Shown one piece after another: positions 56,072-63,862 of a DNA stretch of 64,000 bases. Where the stretch lies: the NCBI RefSeq assembly GCF_000832305.1, contig NZ_CP010536.1, positions 1,240,001 through 1,304,000 of the forward strand. The letters are read 5' to 3'. The position numbers and the translations under genes are program-made. Positions within the stretch are counted from its first letter, which is position 1. Each line of letters opens with the position of its first letter. Origin of the DNA: Cupriavidus basilensis. GTDB lineage: Bacteria; Pseudomonadota; Gammaproteobacteria; Burkholderiales; Burkholderiaceae. Under the pieces are notes generated by a model. It ran no database searches. It saw only the letters and a list, made by a program, of their open reading frames with translations, and had not been told where the DNA came from.

Positions 56072-56179
56072 GCGCAGATTATCCGACAATACTAGGCGCT
56101 CTCCAATTCGGTGCCTGACCGGCCGTGCATAACGCGCGCGCCGGCCAAGGGCCGGCTCACGCGCTACCAAGTAACAGGA

Positions 56180-59140
56180 ATGACTTCCACTGATCCGACG
56201 AGTTCCGCAGCCGCGCCCGAGACCGCTGCAACCGATGGCGCTGCCGGCGAACGTGCGCCCGGCAACACTTCCGGCGCGGCCAGGCAGGCCGTGGCCGACA
56301 TGGCCACCGGCCCGTTCGCGGTGGTGGCCGCCGTTGAACTCGTGCCGGTCGATTGCGCCGGCATGGCATTGTACTCGCCCGCCTATTCCCATTACACCCG
56401 CCGCATGGTGCAGGCCCGTCCCGAGCTGGCCGAAATCGTCGCGCAAGCACGCGACCAGCCGCTCACGCGCGCCTGGATGGCGGCACGGCTCAAGGTCCTG
56501 CATGAGCCGTCGGCCGATGTGGACGACGCCATCAAGCGCGCGCTGCGCCGCTTGCGCGCAGAAGTGATGTGCGTGGTGATCGAGCGCGATCTGCGCGGGC
56601 AGTCGACGCTGGGCGAAGTCACCGGCGCGATGACGGATCTGGCCGAGCTCGGCATCCAGTATGGCCTGGCCATGCTGGAAGCGGACCTTGCCCCGACCTA
56701 CGGCCGTCCGGTCGGGGAGAGCAGCGGGGAAGTCCAGGAGCTGGTGGTGGTTGGCATGGGCAAGCTGGGTGGCCGCGAGCTCAATGTGTCGTCCGACATC
56801 GACCTGATCTTCCTGTACGACGAAGACGGCGACACGCGTGGCGGGCAACGCAGCCTGTCCAATCACGAGTACTTCATCCGCCTGGGACGGCGCCTGATCA
56901 ACCTGCTGGCCGACGTGACCGCAGACGGCTACGTGTTCCGCGTCGACATGCGCCTGCGCCCCAATGGCGACGCCGGGCCGCTGGCCTGCAGCTTCGGCAT
57001 GCTGGAGCAATACCTGATGGTGCAGGGGCGCGAGTGGGAGCGCTACGCCTGGATCAAGGGCAGGGTGGTATCGGCGCTGGATACCCCGCACGCGCAGCGT
57101 ACCGCCGCGCAACTGGCCAGCCTGACCACGCCCTTCGTCTTTCGCCGCTACCTCGACTACGGCGTGATTGCGGCGATCCGCTCGCTGCATGCGCAGATCC
57201 GCGCCGAGGCGGCCAAGCGCAGCGGCGGGCTGGCGGCGCCAGGCGGCGGCCAGCGCGTCAACCAGCGTGCCTTCAATATCAAGCTCGGCCGCGGCGGCAT
57301 CCGCGAGATCGAGTTCATGGCCCAGGTCTTCCAGCTGATCCGCGGCGGCCAGGACCCGGCGCTGCGCATCCGGCCCACCCTGGAGGTGTTGGCGGTGGCA
57401 GTGGAGCATGGGCTGTTGCCCGCGGGCCAGGCCGAGCAACTGGCGCACGCCTACCGCTTCCTGCGCCAGCTCGAGCATCGCCTGCAGTATCGCGACGATG
57501 CCCAGACGCACCACCTGCCAACCTCGGAAGAGGAGCAGCTGGCGGTGGCGAAGATGATGGGCTGCGCCGACTGGCCGGCCCTGCTCGAGCGGCTGGCATC
57601 GCTGCAGGATCCGGTGGCGCAACAGTTCGAGGCCACCTTCTCGGACCCCGATGAAGCGCACGCGCCGTGCGAGGCGTTGTGGCCGGCGTTGATCCAGGAA
57701 GAACAGGATGAGCCGCCGTGCGAACGCTTGGCCTCAGCCGGCTTCAGTGATTGCGCCGGGCTGCTCGACCGCCTGCGCGCCATTGGTGGCTCGCTGCGTT
57801 ACCGCGCGCTGTCCGAGCCCAGCCGGGTGCGCTTTGACCTGCTGGTCAACCGCGCGCTTGACCTGGCCTCGCGCCAGGAAGATGCCGACCGCACCATCGC
57901 CCGCTTTGTCGATTTCCTGGATGCCATCAGCCGCCGTGCGTCCTACCTTTCGCTGCTTTCCGAGTACCCGCAGGCGATGGCGCGCGTGGCCGACACGCTG
58001 CACGCGTCAAGCTGGGCCGCCGCCTATCTGACCCGCCACCCGCAACTGCTTGACGAACTGCTCGATAGCGATGCCCTGGCGGGCGCGCCCGACTGGGCCG
58101 GCTTTCGCAGCCGCCTGGCCACGCGCCTCGACGCGGCCGACGGGCAGATCGAAGCGCAGATGGACATCCTGCGCCGCGAGCACCACGCCGAGACGTTCCG
58201 CATCCTGTTGCAGGACCTGCAAGGCATGCTGACCGTGGAGCAGATCGCCGACCGGCTGTCGGACCTGGCCGACGCCATGCTCGAGGTGACCCTGCAGGCC
58301 GTCTGGCGCCAGCTGGCGACCCGGCATGCCGAGCAGCCGCGCTTTGCCGTGATCGCTTACGGCAAGCTGGGCGGCAAGGAGCTGGGCTATGCCTCCGACC
58401 TCGACATCATCTTCCTCTACGAGGACGAGCACGAGCGCGCGCCTGATGTCTATGCCGCCTACGCGCGCCGCCTGATCACCTGGCTGACCAGCCATACCGC
58501 CGCCGGCACGCTGTTCGATGTCGACACGCGCCTGCGCCCCAACGGCGAGGCCGGGCTGCTGGTGACCAGCTTCGAGGGCTTTCGCCGCTACCAGCAGCGC
58601 GAGGGTGACAACACCGCGTGGGTGTGGGAGCACCAGGCCCTTACCCGCGCGCGTTTTTGCGCGGGCGACCCCGGGATCGGCGCGCATTTCGAGAGCCTGC
58701 GCGACGAGATCCTGCGCCAGCCACGCGACGCCGCCACGCTGCGCGGCGAGATCGTCGTCATGCGCCACAAGGTGGCCGAGGGCCATCCCAACCCAAGCGG
58801 GTTGTTCGACCTCAAGCATGATCGCGGCGGCATGGTCGACATCGAGTTCACGGTGCAATACCTTGTGCTGCTGCACAGCCACGATCATCCCGCGCTCACG
58901 CGCAATGCCGGCAATATCGCGCTGCTGCGCACGGCCGGTGAAATCGGCCTGATCGATGCCACGCTGGCGCGCGAAGTGGGCGACGCCTATCGCCTGTTCC
59001 GTGCCCGCCAGCACCAGCTGCGCCTGGACGGGCAGGTCCACGCACGGGTTGCGCCGGCCGTGGTGGCGCAGCAGGCGGAACACGTGCGCACCCTCTGGCA
59101 AGCAGTGTTCGGCGAGCCGGTTGCCGCCGGCGGCAAATGA
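56180..59140 (+). CDS. glnE: Glutamine synthetase adenylyltransferase/deadenylase GlnE
   Basis: 986 residues. Two nucleotidyltransferase domains are present: the deadenylase with VGMGKLGGRELNVSSDIDLIFLYDED, and the adenylyltransferase with AYGKLGGKELGYASDLDIIFLYED. HDRGGMVDIEFTVQYLVLLH marks the carboxy-terminal regulatory part. It controls glutamine synthetase in response to PII and is divergent from yhdP (108 bases). The stop overlaps the rhombosortase start by ATGA, suggesting a shared transcript. Confidence 0.95.
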   Translation: MTSTDPTSSAAAPETAATDGAAGERAPGNTSGAARQAVADMATGPFAVVAAVELVPVDCAGMALYSPAYSHYTRRMVQARPELAEIVAQARDQPLTRAWMAARLKVLHEPSADVDDAIKRALRRLRAEVMCVVIERDLRGQSTLGEVTGAMTDLAELGIQYGLAMLEADLAPTYGRPVGESSGEVQELVVVGMGKLGGRELNVSSDIDLIFLYDEDGDTRGGQRSLSNHEYFIRLGRRLINLLADVTADGYVFRVDMRLRPNGDAGPLACSFGMLEQYLMVQGREWERYAWIKGRVVSALDTPHAQRTAAQLASLTTPFVFRRYLDYGVIAAIRSLHAQIRAEAAKRSGGLAAPGGGQRVNQRAFNIKLGRGGIREIEFMAQVFQLIRGGQDPALRIRPTLEVLAVAVEHGLLPAGQAEQLAHAYRFLRQLEHRLQYRDDAQTHHLPTSEEEQLAVAKMMGCADWPALLERLASLQDPVAQQFEATFSDPDEAHAPCEALWPALIQEEQDEPPCERLASAGFSDCAGLLDRLRAIGGSLRYRALSEPSRVRFDLLVNRALDLASRQEDADRTIARFVDFLDAISRRASYLSLLSEYPQAMARVADTLHASSWAAAYLTRHPQLLDELLDSDALAGAPDWAGFRSRLATRLDAADGQIEAQMDILRREHHAETFRILLQDLQGMLTVEQIADRLSDLADAMLEVTLQAVWRQLATRHAEQPRFAVIAYGKLGGKELGYASDLDIIFLYEDEHERAPDVYAAYARRLITWLTSHTAAGTLFDVDTRLRPNGEAGLLVTSFEGFRRYQQREGDNTAWVWEHQALTRARFCAGDPGIGAHFESLRDEILRQPRDAATLRGEIVVMRHKVAEGHPNPSGLFDLKHDRGGMVDIEFTVQYLVLLHSHDHPALTRNAGNIALLRTAGEIGLIDATLAREVGDAYRLFRARQHQLRLDGQVHARVAPAVVAQQAEHVRTLWQAVFGEPVAAGGK

Positions 59141-59772
59141 ACGTGCAGGCGGCTGGCGCGGCGCGCCGGCCGGGATGGCCGGGCGTGCTGGCCGTACTGG
59201 CGCTCACGGCCGCCCTGGGTGCCGCTTTTACCTTCATTCCGTGGCTGCGCGCGCACGGGCTCTATCTGCGCGATGCGGTCATGGGCCACGGCGTGGCGGG
59301 CCAGTGGTGGCGCCTGCTGACCGCAATGTGGGTCCACCTTGGCTGGCAGCACTGGCTGGCGGACCTGCTGGCCGCTGCGGGCCTGTTCCTGCTGATTGGC
59401 CGCGAGGCGCGCGCCGGCGCGATGTTGGCGGTCCTGTTCGCCTGCGGCGTTGCGGTGCAACTGGCGTTATGCCGGGTGCCGTCGGTGGGCTGGTACGGCG
59501 GATTGTCCGGTGCGTTGCACGGGTTGGCCCTGTGGGGCGGGCTGCGGCTGCTCTATGGCGGCGGCGTGTCGCGCGTGCTCGGCGTGGCGCTCTGCCTTGG
59601 CGTGTTGGTCAAGACCTGGCTTGAGCAGTCATGGCTCGCGCCCGTGGTGTTCGACGCGCAGTGGGGGTTCGGGGTCGTGCGCATCTCGCACGCGGCCGGC
59701 GCGTTGGCCGGCCTGGGGCTATGGCTGGTGCAGGAGTGGTGGCAGCGCCGGCGGGGCGGGCCACCGGCATAG
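59137..59772 (+). CDS. rrtA: Rhombosortase
   Basis: 211 residues, rhomboid-fold intramembrane serine protease with six hydrophobic segments. The serine motif is GGLSGALHG (S124) and the catalytic His is in RISHAAGAL (H185). WVHLGWQHWLADLLAAAGL is the conserved loop-1 region. Its length and the LHG/HAAGA pattern are those of rhombosortases, which process GlyGly-CTERM proteins. A GlyGly-CTERM protease gene lies directly next to it in convergent orientation. The ATG overlaps the glnE stop. Confidence 0.9.
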   Translation: MNVQAAGAARRPGWPGVLAVLALTAALGAAFTFIPWLRAHGLYLRDAVMGHGVAGQWWRLLTAMWVHLGWQHWLADLLAAAGLFLLIGREARAGAMLAVLFACGVAVQLALCRVPSVGWYGGLSGALHGLALWGGLRLLYGGGVSRVLGVALCLGVLVKTWLEQSWLAPVVFDAQWGFGVVRISHAAGALAGLGLWLVQEWWQRRRGGPPA

Positions 59773-59784
59773 GCGCGCTGGCAA

Positions 59785-59817
59785 GGGGCGCCGCCGGCGC
59801 AGGCCGGACGGTGCCCC
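59785..59817. terminator. Imperfect hairpin between convergent rrtA and subtilase genes
   Basis: GGGGCGCCGCCGGC / GCCGGACGGTGCCCC pairing with one mismatch and one bulge in the 71-base gap. There is no T tract, so only a possible terminator. Confidence 0.35.
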
Positions 59818-59843
59818 GCGTTCGCCGCGAATTCAGCGCGGTT

Positions 59844-61529
59844 TCAGCGCGACCGCGCCGGGCGCCGGCGGCGCCCGGCCCAGTTCAGCAGCAAGCCAAG
59901 CGCGCCCAGCCCGAGCGCGAGCGGCCAGGAAATCGCGCCGCCGCCGCCCGAGGAGGTGGCTGGCGCAGCGGGCGCGGGCGCCGGCTGGACCACCTGCGTG
60001 CCGGCCGCCACGGCAGCATTGGCATCGAGCAGGCCCGCGCCGCAGATGCCGGCATTGGCTGCGGCCGTGCAATAGGTGCCGGCCGGGTGGGGCCGCGCCG
60101 AACTCTTCAAGGTGGCAAGCACCTGGGCGGGCGTGAGCGCCGGGTTGGCGGCGAGCATCAACGACACCACGCCCGACACCAGCGGCGCGGCAAAGCTGGT
60201 GCCTTGCGAATTGATGACGTTGTAGTTGCCAAGCGAGGTGGTGCCGTCATTGGACAGGGTCCGGATGAACGATTCCGCCACCGAGCATTTGCCGCCCGAT
60301 ACCTTGGAGTTGCCGCAGCCGCCGCCCGGCGCGCTTAGCGCAACCTGTGGCCCCACGTTGGCATAGCTGGCGTTCTCGCCGTCGTTGGCATGTGCCGTTA
60401 CGGCGACCACGCCGGCGCAGTCGGCAGGCGCCTCGACCGCGCCGGCGCTGTTGCCCGTGGCGGCGACCACCACCACGCCATTCGCGGCGAGGTCGGTCAC
60501 GGCTTGCTGCTCGATGCTGGAGCAGGTCCCGCCGCCCAGGCTCACGTTGATCACGCGCGCCGGGGTGGGGTTGGCCGGCGCGTTGGGTACGGAGAGGCCG
60601 CCAGCCCAGCGCATGCCATCCACGGTGTCCGAGAGCAGCGCGCCGCAGCGGCCGGAGACGCGCACCGGCTGGATGCGGGCGTTCCAGTCCACACCGGCGA
60701 TGTTCACCCCGTTATTGGTGAGCGCGCCAAGCGTGCCTGCCACGCGGGTGCCGTGCCAGCTATTGTTGGTTGCGGTCGTGGTCGGCGTGGTGGTGCCCGG
60801 GCAGGTGAAGCCCGCCGGCACGCCGTCGCCGGCGTCGGTGGCATCCGCATCCCGTCCATCGCCGTCGTTGGCGATGGACGGATCGGTAATGAAGTCATAG
60901 CCGGGCACAATGCGGCCGGCGAGATCGGGGTGCGGCAGGTAGCCGGTATCGAGCACGGCGATCACCAGGCTGCTGCTGCCGCGCGTGCGGTCCCATGCGG
61001 GTGGCAGGTTCACGCCGCCCACCACCTGTGCGGGGGTACCGAGGTAGGGCTGGTTGAGCGCGAACTCGGGATCGTTGGGGATGGTGTCGTGCAGCCGCAG
61101 CCAGCGGTCCGGCACCACTTCCGCGATCCGCGGATCCTGGCGCAGCCGGGCGGCGGTGCCTTCCGGGTCGGCGGCATCGCTGCCGGAGACGCTCAGCAGT
61201 TGCAAGCTGCCGCCCATCTGGCGCTTGACCGAGAGCGCCACGCCGGTGCTCTGGCGCACGCTCAGCATACGCTCGGGCAGGCCGCTGGCAGCGGCGCTGT
61301 CGCTCGCGCTGGTGGCGTTCGTGCCGGCGATTGTGCTTGTGCTGCCGTCGCGCCAGCGCACGATGAAGTTGCCGGTGTAGCGCGGCGCGGGGCGCGCGGC
61401 GGGGTCGGGGGCTGCGCTGGCCGCGGCCGGCACGCCCAGCCAGAGGGCGGCGCCAAGCGCCAGCAGCAGGGCGGCATGGGATGCCACGCGCCGCGTTTCG
61501 CCAGATCGAAATCGAAGCTGTTCCTGCAT
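59844..61529 (-). CDS. S8 subtilisin-like protease with GlyGly-CTERM
   Basis: 561 residues. Signal peptide to about 40 (LLLALGAALWLGVPAAASA), prodomain about 52-148 (FIVRWRDG ... VKRQMGGS ... LRQDPRIAEVVPDR), catalytic domain with D194 (AVLDTGYLPHPD), H259 (SWHGTRVAGT), oxyanion N360 and S445 (SQGTSFAAPLVSG). A Pro/Ala linker leads to the sorting tail SSGGGGAISWPLALGLGALG with a membrane segment and Arg cluster (RRRRPARSR). Rhombosortase should cut at the glycine motif after type II secretion or membrane passage. The ATG at 61529 is chosen for the signal peptide. Confidence 0.93.
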   Translation of the reverse strand: MQEQLRFRSGETRRVASHAALLLALGAALWLGVPAAASAAPDPAARPAPRYTGNFIVRWRDGSTSTIAGTNATSASDSAAASGLPERMLSVRQSTGVALSVKRQMGGSLQLLSVSGSDAADPEGTAARLRQDPRIAEVVPDRWLRLHDTIPNDPEFALNQPYLGTPAQVVGGVNLPPAWDRTRGSSSLVIAVLDTGYLPHPDLAGRIVPGYDFITDPSIANDGDGRDADATDAGDGVPAGFTCPGTTTPTTTATNNSWHGTRVAGTLGALTNNGVNIAGVDWNARIQPVRVSGRCGALLSDTVDGMRWAGGLSVPNAPANPTPARVINVSLGGGTCSSIEQQAVTDLAANGVVVVAATGNSAGAVEAPADCAGVVAVTAHANDGENASYANVGPQVALSAPGGGCGNSKVSGGKCSVAESFIRTLSNDGTTSLGNYNVINSQGTSFAAPLVSGVVSLMLAANPALTPAQVLATLKSSARPHPAGTYCTAAANAGICGAGLLDANAAVAAGTQVVQPAPAPAAPATSSGGGGAISWPLALGLGALGLLLNWAGRRRRPARSR

Positions 61530-61651
61530 GTCTACGTTCTCCCGTTGAGCCCGCTTCGGACCGACCGCGGTTACAGCATTCAATCTTCAGTCTTCAACCT
61601 TCAACGTCCAAGCCATGCATTCCGACGACAGGAACCGGGCCGCCGCCGGAC

Positions 61652-62089
61652 TCAGCTCGCCGGCATGTCGCGGCCGACGGGCTGGGTGCGGTTCGGCTTG
61701 AGCACGCGATCAGGTTCGGCCAGCTCGATGCGAGGGGTGCCGCGCAGCGTGGCAAGCGCCTGGTCGATCGTGGCATCGGCCGACGCGGAGATCGCGGTGA
61801 CCAGCCACACGCCGCCCGACATGGGCCGCTTGACGACGAAGCGGATCGGCCCGGCAATCGACGCCAGCAAGCGATCGGCGTCTTCGGACACGGTGACGGG
61901 CGGCGCGGAGAACCGCACCATGATATCGCCTACGGTGCGATCGGCGCTGATGCTGTTGAGCGGTGGCGCAGACGGGCGCTGTTGCGCCTGGCAGGCGGTC
62001 AGCGCCAGCAAGGCCAGCAGGCCGCAGGCGGCGGTAATCCGCAGTGGGCGGGCCAGTGAGCGGGAGTGCGGCTGTTTGCCGAGTGACAT
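61652..62089 (-). CDS. Lipoprotein resembling a free-standing subtilase prodomain
   Basis: 145 residues. The signal peptide ends in LTAC (C33), so it is a lipoprotein. Residues 54-135 align with the prodomain of the neighbouring subtilase: GDIMVRF to GNFIVRW, VKRPMSGG (86-93) to VKRQMGGS, LRGTPRIELAEPDRVL (115-130) to LRQDPRIAEVVPDRWL. Such I9-like domains act as folding helpers and inhibitors. It lies 122 bases upstream of the subtilase on the same strand, so it may be made with it as a detached chaperone or inhibitor. The function is inferred. Confidence 0.8.
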   Translation of the reverse strand: MSLGKQPHSRSLARPLRITAACGLLALLALTACQAQQRPSAPPLNSISADRTVGDIMVRFSAPPVTVSEDADRLLASIAGPIRFVVKRPMSGGVWLVTAISASADATIDQALATLRGTPRIELAEPDRVLKPNRTQPVGRDMPAS

Positions 62090-62127: not shown

Positions 62128-62148
62128 GCGCAGGCTGTCAGCCTGCGC
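62128..62148 (-). terminator. Hairpin at the recN stop
   Basis: GCGCAGGCT / AGCCTGCGC with a 3-base loop, overlapping the recN stop region. No T tract follows, so it may be a weak terminator between recN and the lipoprotein gene. Confidence 0.35.
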
Positions 62149-63862
62149 TGCGCCGCGAGCGGCGCGCCTCCCGGGCCGTGCCGGTGGTGCCGCGCAGGCC
62201 TTGCGCGAGCATCTCCTCGGCGTGTTGCACCGTGGTCGCCGTCACGGTGGTCCCGCCCAGCATGCGTGCGGTTTCGACCACGCGGCCGGCGGCGTCGAGG
62301 CCGCGGATGCGCGAGCGGGTGACCGAGCCTGTGCCGTCGCGCTGGCTGGTCTCCTTGCTGACCAGCAGGTGGGCGCCGGCCTGGGCCGCCACCTGCGGCA
62401 GGTGGGTCACGCACAACACCTGGCGGGCGCGGCCGAGTTCCTGCAGGCGGCGGCCCACCACCTCGGCCACCGCGCCGCCGATGCCGGTGTCGACTTCGTC
62501 GAAGATCAGGGTGGGGGTGGGCGCGGCCTCGCTGGTAATGACGGAAATCGCCAGGCTGATCCGGGCCAGCTCGCCGCCCGACGCCACTTTGGCCAAGGGG
62601 CGCGCGCTGACGCCGGCATGGCCTGCCACCAGGAACTCGACTTGTTCCAGACCGTGGCTCTGCCCTTCGTCCAGCGGGTGCAGCGCCACCGCGAAACTGC
62701 CGCCCGCCATGGACAGGCCCTGCATGGCATCCGTCACGGCGGCCGACAGGCTCTCGGCCGCCACCTTGCGGGCAGCGCCGAGATGCTGGGCGATGGTGAG
62801 GTAGGCGGCGCGGGCCGCGGCCTCGCGCGCCATCGCCTTGTTCAGGTCCTGGGCGGACTGGAGATCGTCCAGTTGCTGGCGGCGCGCCATCAGTTCGTCC
62901 GGCAACTGCTCCGGCGGCATCCGGTACTTGCGCGCGGTGGTGTGCAGCGCCTGCATGCGCGCCTCCACCACCTGCAAGCGTTCGGGGTCCAGGTCGATCC
63001 GGTCGACGTAGCGGTTGAGCGAGTGCGCGGCCTCCTCGACTTGGACCAGCGCCGGGTCCAGCGCCGCCAGTACGTCGCCCAGCGCGGGGTCGACGTCAGC
63101 CATCTGCCGCAGGCGCTGCACCACGCTGTTCAGCCCGGACAGCACCGAGCCATCGGCCTCGGACAGCGCCTCGAGCGCGGCGCGGCTGCCCTCGATCAGC
63201 CCGGCGGCATGCGACAGCCGGTTGTATTCGGCCTGGATGTCTTCCCATTCGCCAGGTTGCGGCGCCAGCTTCTCGAGCTCGCCGACCTGCCATTCGAGCC
63301 GCTCGCGTTCCAGCTGCATCTCGCGCGAGCGGTGCTCGACGGTTTCGCGCTGGCGCACGCACGCACGCCACGAGCGCCAGGCTTCGGCCACCGCGCCGGC
63401 CTGCGCGGTGAGGCCGGCATGGGCATCGAGCAGCAAGCGCTGGGCATCCGGGCGCAGCAGTAGCTGATGGGCATGCTGGCCGTGGATATCGACCAGGCGG
63501 TCGCCGATGTCGCGCAACTGGCCCAGCGTGGCGGCGGCGCCATTGATAAAGGCCTTGCCGCGCCCGCTGGCGTCGACCGTGCGGCGCAGCAGCACCGTGC
63601 CTTCGTCGCCAGTGAGATCGTGTTCGGCCAGCCAGGCGTCGAGCCCGGCCGGGGTGGAAAAGGTGGCGCTGATGCTGGCCCGGGAGGCGCCTTCGCGGAC
63701 CACGCCGGCGTCGGCGCGCTCACCCAGCACCAGCGCCAGCGCATCGATCAGGATCGACTTGCCGGCGCCGGTCTCGCCGGTGAAGACGGTGAAGCCCGGG
63801 GAGAAGTCGAGGTCGAGGGTATCGACAATGACGAAATCGCGGATGGACAGGCTGCGCAGCAT
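62138..63862 (-). CDS. recN: DNA repair protein RecN
   Basis: 574 residues of SMC-like ATPase. FTVFTGETGAGKSILIDALALVLGERAD is the Walker A region, the middle is coiled-coil helical, and VASGGELARISLAISVI with LIFDEVDTGIGG are the signature and Walker B. RecN holds broken DNA ends for double-strand break repair. It sits next to nadK, a usual betaproteobacterial arrangement, and reads toward the lipoprotein and subtilase genes. Confidence 0.95.
   Translation of the reverse strand: MLRSLSIRDFVIVDTLDLDFSPGFTVFTGETGAGKSILIDALALVLGERADAGVVREGASRASISATFSTPAGLDAWLAEHDLTGDEGTVLLRRTVDASGRGKAFINGAAATLGQLRDIGDRLVDIHGQHAHQLLLRPDAQRLLLDAHAGLTAQAGAVAEAWRSWRACVRQRETVEHRSREMQLERERLEWQVGELEKLAPQPGEWEDIQAEYNRLSHAAGLIEGSRAALEALSEADGSVLSGLNSVVQRLRQMADVDPALGDVLAALDPALVQVEEAAHSLNRYVDRIDLDPERLQVVEARMQALHTTARKYRMPPEQLPDELMARRQQLDDLQSAQDLNKAMAREAAARAAYLTIAQHLGAARKVAAESLSAAVTDAMQGLSMAGGSFAVALHPLDEGQSHGLEQVEFLVAGHAGVSARPLAKVASGGELARISLAISVITSEAAPTPTLIFDEVDTGIGGAVAEVVGRRLQELGRARQVLCVTHLPQVAAQAGAHLLVSKETSQRDGTGSVTRSRIRGLDAAGRVVETARMLGGTTVTATTVQHAEEMLAQGLRGTTGTAREARRSRRSAG

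Follow-up and report, generated by a model that had tools for sequence, protein, structure and literature searches.

The right end of a 64,000-nucleotide stretch of the Cupriavidus basilensis genome (contig NZ_CP010536.1, positions 1,240,001 to 1,304,000 of the forward strand; this whole stretch is called the window) carries, from left to right, glnE, the rhombosortase gene rrtA, the gene of an S8 (subtilase) protease, a small lipoprotein gene, and recN. Sequence comparison indicates that the lipoprotein is homologous to the attached prodomain of the neighbouring protease, the similarity being beyond chance. The lipoprotein is probably (with a probability of about 0.6) a lipid-anchored, second, and trans-acting prodomain that inhibits the S8 protease in the cell envelope and perhaps also aids its folding, a reading based on sequences, predicted structures, and analogy with known systems. 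The main features are the following (positions of the window):

61652..62089, minus strand: detached prodomain lipoprotein of 145 amino acids (lipobox, BLASTP, profile-profile match, predicted fold)
61991..61993, minus strand: lipobox Cys33 (LTAC, residues 30-33; by reading and from the alignment of relatives)
61688..61939, minus strand: predicted prodomain fold, lipoprotein residues 51-134 (AlphaFold2 model; superposition on 1spb_P)
61655..61687, minus strand: C-terminal extension TQPVGRDMPAS, found in Cupriavidus and not in Ralstonia (compared loci)
59844..61529, minus strand: S8 (subtilase) protease of 561 amino acids, with its own N-terminal hydrophobic segment and its own prodomain (PF00082, 143.2 bits)
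61086..61388, minus strand: prodomain attached to the protease (cis), about residues 48-148 (start of the solved relatives, match of profile A3 to the lipoprotein, strand-helix order in a low-confidence model)
60030..61085, minus strand: catalytic domain, about residues 149-500 (PF00082, Protein Data Bank (PDB) relatives, invariant columns)
59847..59954, minus strand: GlyGly-CTERM-type tail with SSGGGG, a hydrophobic segment, and RRRR (read directly in the sequence)
59137..59772, plus strand: rrtA, coding for a rhombosortase of 211 amino acids (TIGR03902, 119.7 bits, curated cut-off 84)

A first line of evidence for the relationship between both proteins came from their sequences. BLASTP aligned lipoprotein residues 82-137 with protease residues 97-151 (38% over 56 amino acids, E 7e-5 in this single-pair comparison), and in ten related genomes, too, the lipoprotein query hit the adjacent protease at its N-terminus (E 9.9e-8 to 4.5e-4). 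With hhalign, a profile of 28 lipoproteins matched one of 13 attached prodomains with a probability of 98.3% (E 1.1e-14, 97 columns), and it also matched nine prodomains from a second Ralstonia protease type and from genus g25 (96.2%, E 2.2e-9, 50 columns). The matching part of the lipoprotein spans approximately residues 45-142. A preliminary description of the window had placed this match at residues 54-135, next to RrtA motifs at 59137-59772 and a convergent S8 protease ending in SSGGGG, a membrane segment, and RRRR; all three readings were right, and the occurrence of rrtA, a GlyGly-CTERM S8 protease gene, and a prodomain-like lipoprotein gene in one locus was confirmed. Its further claim that the lipoprotein represents a second, detached prodomain is supported by the sequence homology, and the predicted fold agrees with it. 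A sequence search of the PDB with the lipoprotein profile returned nothing below E 0.2, and a search for prodomain-only proteins gave 17, the 8 inspected of which resembled protease pieces or truncated frames and included no new lipoproteins.

Family models contributed little to this assignment. No Pfam or NCBIfam model matches the lipoprotein significantly; the sole Pfam line, a CBS domain (E 0.21), lies below the cut-off, with no stretch passing it, and was ascribed to chance. Similarly, Inhibitor_I9 (PF05922) did not match the lipoprotein, nor does it figure in the list of families obtained for 61 relatives. The model matched by the largest number of these relatives, the Fervidolysin_NPro-like model PF22148, gave weak matches, with 19 of the 61 relatives at E up to 10 and a best E of 1.1e-4, and it did not match the window lipoprotein itself; this counts little because the phage lipoprotein model O_Spanin_T7 matched 12 of the 61 nearly as well (best 1.9e-4). 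As for the attached prodomains of the window-protease kind, ORF_2_N matched 3 of 21 (best E 6.1e-4) and PF05922 matched 2 of 21 (best E 0.059). The relatives named in a protein search belonged to Cupriavidus, the nearest to C. basilensis.

Secondly, an AlphaFold2 run on the lipoprotein with 61 sequences predicted an I9/prodomain-like core, as the preliminary description had supposed. The mean predicted local distance difference test score (pLDDT) per block of residues was 95-98 for residues 51-120, 88 for residues 121-130, and 65 for residues 131-145, and the predicted elements (strand 51-60, helix 68-76, strand 82-89, strand 94-101, helix 108-116, strand 121-126) follow a beta-alpha-beta-beta-alpha-beta order. 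When superposed with VIA-align, the subtilisin prosegments 3whi, 3cnq, 1spb, and 1scj fitted at 2.2-2.6 A over 63-70 residues; they occupied ranks 6, 8, 9, and 10 and had the lowest rmsd among the first ten. For 1spb_P, model residues 53-134 fell on prosegment residues 7-77 (2.5 A over 69 residues). The last prosegment residue falls on lipoprotein residue 134 (1spb, 1scj) or 136 (3cnq), in the region of the model with a pLDDT of 65. The prodomain relationship is established by the sequences, and the predicted fold agrees with it.

Both ends of the lipoprotein are informative about its possible mode of action. By reading, the N-terminus consists of a signal peptide and a lipobox ending in a cysteine, Cys33, which is invariant in all 61 aligned relatives. 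It is followed by QAQ, hence there is no Asp at position +2, and according to the sorting rule of Escherichia coli a lipoprotein without Asp at this position is expected at the outer membrane. At the other end, the Ralstonia lipoprotein stops at the residue aligned to R134 in 16 of the 16 loci read (KIQR or KIQH). Among 22 Ralstonia-type database proteins, from which the broken or odd P0078 and P0099 had been left out, 18 end at the residue aligned to position 134 and four end one residue later. Cupriavidus lipoproteins run past this position, usually with RDMP, the window protein by 11 residues. A product-like inhibitor would be expected to have its free C-terminus at a P1-like position.

The protease itself has the catalytic motifs of a subtilase. 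The motifs around D194, H259, and S445 (DTG, HGT, GTS) are invariant in an alignment of 31 sequences (A6). The nearest solved relatives (7w2a, 5yl7, 9grg and its kin, 3ti7, 3ti9) align from protease residue 150 or 151, at chain residue 2 or 3, and the cis prodomain was therefore taken to end near residue 148. The full-length model of the protease was poor (mean pLDDT 58), so that no interface was read from it; at this low confidence, it displayed a prodomain-like strand-helix order in the cis region. At the C-terminus, SSGGGG is followed by a hydrophobic stretch and then by GRRRRPARSR. A Gly-rich motif, a membrane segment, a basic cluster, and a rhombosortase in the same genome, which together characterize GlyGly-CTERM proteins, were thus all found, with rrtA adjacent. 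The NCBIfam tail models did not match the window protease (P0002) at E up to 10, and the tail model TIGR03867 (MprA_tail) matched 26 of the 31 aligned homologues at E up to 10 (best 2.5e-11).

Thirdly, the lipoprotein gene is kept with its neighbours throughout the closest genera. The order recN-lipoprotein-S8 (one to three copies)-rrtA-glnE is conserved in Cupriavidus and Ralstonia. In a survey of 200 genomes of the family, at a threshold of E 0.001, the lipoprotein query matched 41, two of which (G106 and G122) through attached prodomains of proteases, leaving 39 genomes: 22 of Cupriavidus (g1), 16 of Ralstonia (g24), and one of genus g4. The lipoprotein open reading frame (ORF) was read in the fetched locus of 38 of them, the 39th being the window. 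RrtA scored above its cut-off in 38 of the 200 genomes, namely the lipoprotein genomes minus G166, where the locus runs into a contig end; a further 25 genomes had rhomboid matches below the cut-off. This co-occurrence of lipoprotein and rrtA within the family is one inherited block, not independent co-occurrence. Searching the genome collection for one peptide pattern led to 49 named loci (Cupriavidus, Ralstonia, or Burkholderiaceae). The S8 gene adjoined the lipoprotein gene on the same strand in all 49, the S8 tail was Gly-rich in 47 (not in L083 and L098), and rrtA lay behind the S8 gene on the other strand in 45; the four loci without rrtA (L097, L098, L110, L113) stop at the S8 gene or no more than 0.7 kb away from it. 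RecN was present in 47 and glnE in 45 of these loci. In 11 of 12 Ralstonia-type loci (L116-L127), two or three tandem Gly-tailed S8 genes stood behind one lipoprotein gene. In three loci (L045 of G131, L080, and L100), the S8 gene was split into two frames, by sequencing error or decay, and the lipoprotein ORF was whole. S8 relatives occurred in a further 28 of the 200 genomes that had neither the lipoprotein nor rrtA above its cut-off, and 11 S8 regions read from ten of these (L075, L076, L132-L140) had no Gly-rich tail and no lipoprotein or rrtA gene beside the S8 gene.

The C. basilensis genome contains a second rrtA (G000:C2:1589136-1589579, 118.8 bits), adjoining a gene for an ExeM/NucH-type nuclease (614.5 bits) with a Gly-rich, hydrophobic, and basic tail (L128 7086-10356, G000:C2:1582000-1597000). 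Neither the genome-wide search nor the list of ORFs of at least 110 amino acids revealed a lipoprotein relative there. Because of this second rrtA with a nuclease and without a lipoprotein, the idea that the lipoprotein follows rrtA was rejected; within the family, it goes with the tagged protease. A third place in this genome (G000:C1:2548613-2548906, L003, E 0.63) lies antisense to a 708-amino acid ORF resembling a DNA ligase by eye and was considered a chance match.

As to selection, the window was compared with 14 loci picked by hand from the 49. The median number of nonsynonymous substitutions per nonsynonymous site (dN) reached 0.349 in the attached prodomain and 0.228 in rrtA, compared with 0.175 in the core of the lipoprotein and 0.188 in the catalytic domain. 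The lipoprotein core and the catalytic domain are thus similarly slow in their evolution, and the core changes half as fast as the cis prodomain. The ratio of dN to the synonymous rate (dN/dS) of the lipoprotein was 0.13-0.50 against these 14 relatives. Such tight constraint on the detached copy would be expected if it has to remain able to bind the catalytic domain as a separate protein. A tree was built from 18 detached and 30 attached prodomains; in it, the lipoproteins of Cupriavidus, Ralstonia, and P0093 (g4-like) formed one clade (support 97/95) that excluded the attached prodomains of these genera, and a recent local duplication was not supported. The label 'detached' required two changes on this tree, a value that none of 500 shuffles reached, and 1% of the bootstrap trees required one. 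A reduced tree of 17 detached and 25 attached sequences left out the detached L230 (long branch, odd composition) and the attached L175, L177, L214 4542-6761, L230, and L235; it required one change (support 84/87, not starred; 87% of the bootstrap trees). L235, a weak candidate, was not used as a detached sequence in either tree. One old origin of the detached prodomains is possible on this phylogenetic evidence.

Beyond the family, 399 genomes of the order were searched. The lipoprotein alignment, with at most 10 candidates scored per genome, matched 8 of them, and a detached prodomain of a distant kind matched 16. Profiles built in this analysis then placed detached prodomains, with a lipobox by reading, beside S8 genes in ten genomes (G225, G215, G256, G362, G516, G252, G203, G542, G456, and G431). 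Single-sequence hhalign probabilities against the attached profile were 96.5 (G256), 79.5 (G362), 73.0 (G431), and 6.2 (G456, which reached 65.6 against the detached profile). A version without lipobox occurred in G442 (35.9), and G350 contributed a weak candidate (0.1, and 10.4 against the detached profile). Relative to the S8 gene, the gene of the detached prodomain lies downstream in the genomes of f5 (G203, G252, G516, G542, and G431; regions including L174-L177 and L228) and upstream in the others. The sorting tag differed as well. By eye, the S8 proteases of G362 and of the f5 genomes carry no tag. In G256, from another family, rrtA is adjacent and above the cut-off (104.8 bits; L172, G256:C1:288000-302000), making this a second trio of lipoprotein, Gly-tailed S8 protease, and rhombosortase. 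G456 has two Gly-tailed S8 genes, an rrtA above the cut-off about 40 kb away, and two MrtJ above the cut-off. In G225 and G215, the S8 proteases end in JDVT-CTERM tails that score 30.1 and 26.6 bits, respectively (cut-off 27), with MrtJ above the cut-off directly behind the S8 gene in G215 (L171, G215:C6:30000-44000) and on another contig in G225 (L150, G225:C29:1000-16000); G350 (L235, G350:C16:1-8500) has a JDVT-like tail below the cut-off (17.2 bits) and an MrtJ-like gene behind the S8 gene that scores just under its own cut-off (74.5 of 75). These JDVT-CTERM/MrtJ loci possibly form a parallel unit with an unrelated sorting protease.

Seen from the protease side, 3 of 52 regions fetched for their S8 relatives gave a detached prodomain by profile (L214, L228, and L230). 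Among 69 regions (L150 and L171-L238), 4 of the 17 Gly-tailed S8 loci had one (L150, L171, L172, and L214), three of these having been fetched because of their detached prodomain. Five Gly-tailed S8 loci had rrtA above the cut-off and no detached prodomain by profile (L179, 121.3 bits; L187, 96.7; L191, 84.3; L197, 100.8; L220, 86.3); L203, with rrtA just below the cut-off (81.2 bits), and L225 had none either. Divergent detached copies may have been missed by the profile. A profile match in L179 (11561-11947, E 8e-4), far from the S8 gene and on the opposite strand, did not look like a prodomain by eye and was not counted. The three-part unit with rhombosortase put forward in the preliminary description is hence not a fixed one, as related prodomains also stand beside JDVT-CTERM-type or untagged S8 proteases and at least five Gly-tailed rrtA loci lack one by profile. 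Likewise, the association of the lipoprotein gene with GlyGly-CTERM genomes holds for its close family and not for its distant relatives, so that the earlier interpretation as a whole was partly supported. A wider picture can be sketched tentatively, with somewhat more doubt than confidence: a widespread family of lipid-anchored 'muzzle' prodomains in the Burkholderiales, possibly of single origin, would be paired with secreted subtilases alongside the intramembrane sorting enzyme of each lineage (MrtJ in some lineages; rhombosortase in Cupriavidus and Ralstonia and in one or more further families), and would act as a membrane-bound trans inhibitor where sorted proteases await export.

A possible mechanism in C. 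basilensis starts with the export of the lipoprotein by Sec and its lipidation on Cys33; with no Asp at +2, it would reach the outer membrane. The I9-like fold would dock on the S8 catalytic domain in the manner of the cis prodomain, and the last strand and tail (EPDRVLKPNR) would occupy the substrate cleft as a product mimic that is cleaved slowly or not at all. The protease would fold with its own prodomain and cleave itself, RrtA would cut it at the GlyGly-CTERM, and it would leave by type II secretion (T2SS); the genome does contain gspD (624.9 bits against a cut-off of 351). For a GlyGly-CTERM protease of Vibrio cholerae, cutting by rhombosortase, modification, and transfer to the surface by the T2SS are described, activation being placed after export (PMC6219818). 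The tethered copy may capture protease that is active too early or left in the periplasm, shielding the envelope and the export machinery, and may also help folding. Binding, inhibition, the compartment, and every step of the protease route in C. basilensis are what we infer, and premature protease activity in the periplasm is an assumption. Inhibition appears more likely than a role in folding because the protease keeps its own prodomain.

Several observations weigh against this reading. The very presence of a cis prodomain makes the need for a second copy not obvious. The 11 S8 regions read from genera g11 and g25 all lack such a partner, as do most regions read in the order. The ferredoxin-like fold class is common, EF-1beta chains had a higher Z (8.2 versus 7.8), and Foldseek returned no match to the lipoprotein model at E 0.001 or better, the best being EF-1 complex chains (5.6e-3); the fold alone therefore proves nothing. 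Indeed, no subtilisin prosegment was among the best 50 Foldseek matches listed, the prosegments appearing in VIA-align. Placement of the tail is unsure, given the pLDDT of 65 for residues 131-145, and with its 11 residues beyond the product-like end the Cupriavidus protein of the window fits a product-like inhibitor more poorly than the Ralstonia form.

Instead of an inhibitor, the lipoprotein might mainly be a foldase, a steric chaperone anchored in the membrane that the protease needs in order to fold for type II secretion; it would then resemble Lif/LipB or CpaB, and any inhibition would be incidental. The upstream gene on the same strand and the membrane anchor fit this role, membrane-bound T2SS chaperones are documented for a lipase and a protease (PMC4713064), and maturation of the Aeromonas sobria protease ASP requires its external chaperone ORF2 (PMC5638518). 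However, the title of reference 17 in PMC5638518 describes ASP as propeptide-deficient, whereas the window protease has a complete prodomain region, and many homologous S8 genes have no detected partner, which makes a dedicated foldase unlikely. Less probable still is a role in keeping the sorted protease at the surface of the outer membrane, as a co-anchor or retention partner, in the way proposed for PrcB and the S8 protease PrtP of the dentilisin complex. PrcB is a lipoprotein encoded by an upstream gene, bound to PrtP and required for it (PMC8167434), and anchoring could suit the related lipoproteins beside untagged S8 proteases, but a second anchor would be redundant where the GlyGly-CTERM/rhombosortase route already anchors the protein, as it does in V. 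cholerae (PMC6219818). A neutral or fossil gene, left next to its source by chance after duplication of a prodomain, would explain the homology with the neighbouring prodomain but is very improbable in view of the purifying selection (dN/dS as given above), the presence of the lipoprotein in the 22 same-genus genomes listed, and a detached clade that is old rather than a recent local copy.

Two further genes complete the locus:

56111-59140, plus strand: glnE (NCBIfam NF008292, 1190.8 bits)
62138-63862, minus strand: recN (NCBIfam, 539.6 bits)

The S8 gene is convergent with rrtA. GGGAGA precedes its start codon (ATG 61529) and CAGGAG precedes that of the lipoprotein gene (ATG 62089). The rrtA start overlaps the glnE stop (ATGA, window 59137-59140), which suggests coupled translation of both genes, as judged from the sequence. 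A scan for promoters and terminators gave no signal above chance.

With respect to known systems, rrtA and GlyGly-CTERM genes that lie side by side, or nearly so, in Cupriavidus and Ralstonia were already listed by Haft and Varghese in 2011 (PMC3237569), so that the preliminary statement that no description of the unit was known does not hold for this pairing. It does hold for the third part that the detached prodomain lipoprotein adds: the word 'lipoprotein' does not occur in the main text of that paper, its passages on these genes contain no detached prodomain (PMC3237569), and none was named among the matches listed in literature searches read by title and abstract opening, a scope outside which preprints and most subscription papers fall. 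A likely function is thereby offered for proteins named 'hypothetical protein' or 'lipoprotein' in databases. It also offers a concrete answer to the question of how a Gram-negative cell survives a broad protease awaiting cutting, lipid modification, and export, namely a membrane-fixed prodomain from a separate gene. Stand-alone I9 inhibitors are known from fungi, as yeast PBI2 and Pleurotus POIA1 represent a prodomain fold turned into a separate trans inhibitor of a subtilase; in contrast, the window protein is a bacterial lipoprotein beside its protease gene and has no PF05922 match. Dentilisin is similar in that an upstream lipoprotein is needed for an outer-membrane S8 protease, but PrcB, compared here by description only, is described as having no homologues outside oral Treponema, and 'prodomain' does not occur in the text available for it (PMC8167434). 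LipB/Lif and CpaB share the membrane-tethered, specific partner of a T2SS substrate encoded by an adjacent gene, although with other domains (a lipase chaperone and an SRPBCC prediction, respectively) and with N-terminal transmembrane helices instead of a lipobox (PMC4713064). A further comparison is that with ORF2, which likewise comes from a separate gene beside an S8 protease and acts as both chaperone and inhibitor of ASP (IC50 84.3 nM), its C-terminus being located at the active site (PMC5638518). The differences are that ASP is propeptide-deficient whereas the window protease has a prodomain, that orf2 lies downstream of the protease gene whereas the lipoprotein gene lies upstream, and that ORF_2_N, which together with a propeptide-less protease would mark an ORF2-type pair, does not appear in the list of 18 families obtained with the 61 lipoproteins. 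By analogy, the lipoprotein of C. basilensis is best read as working like a tethered ORF2.

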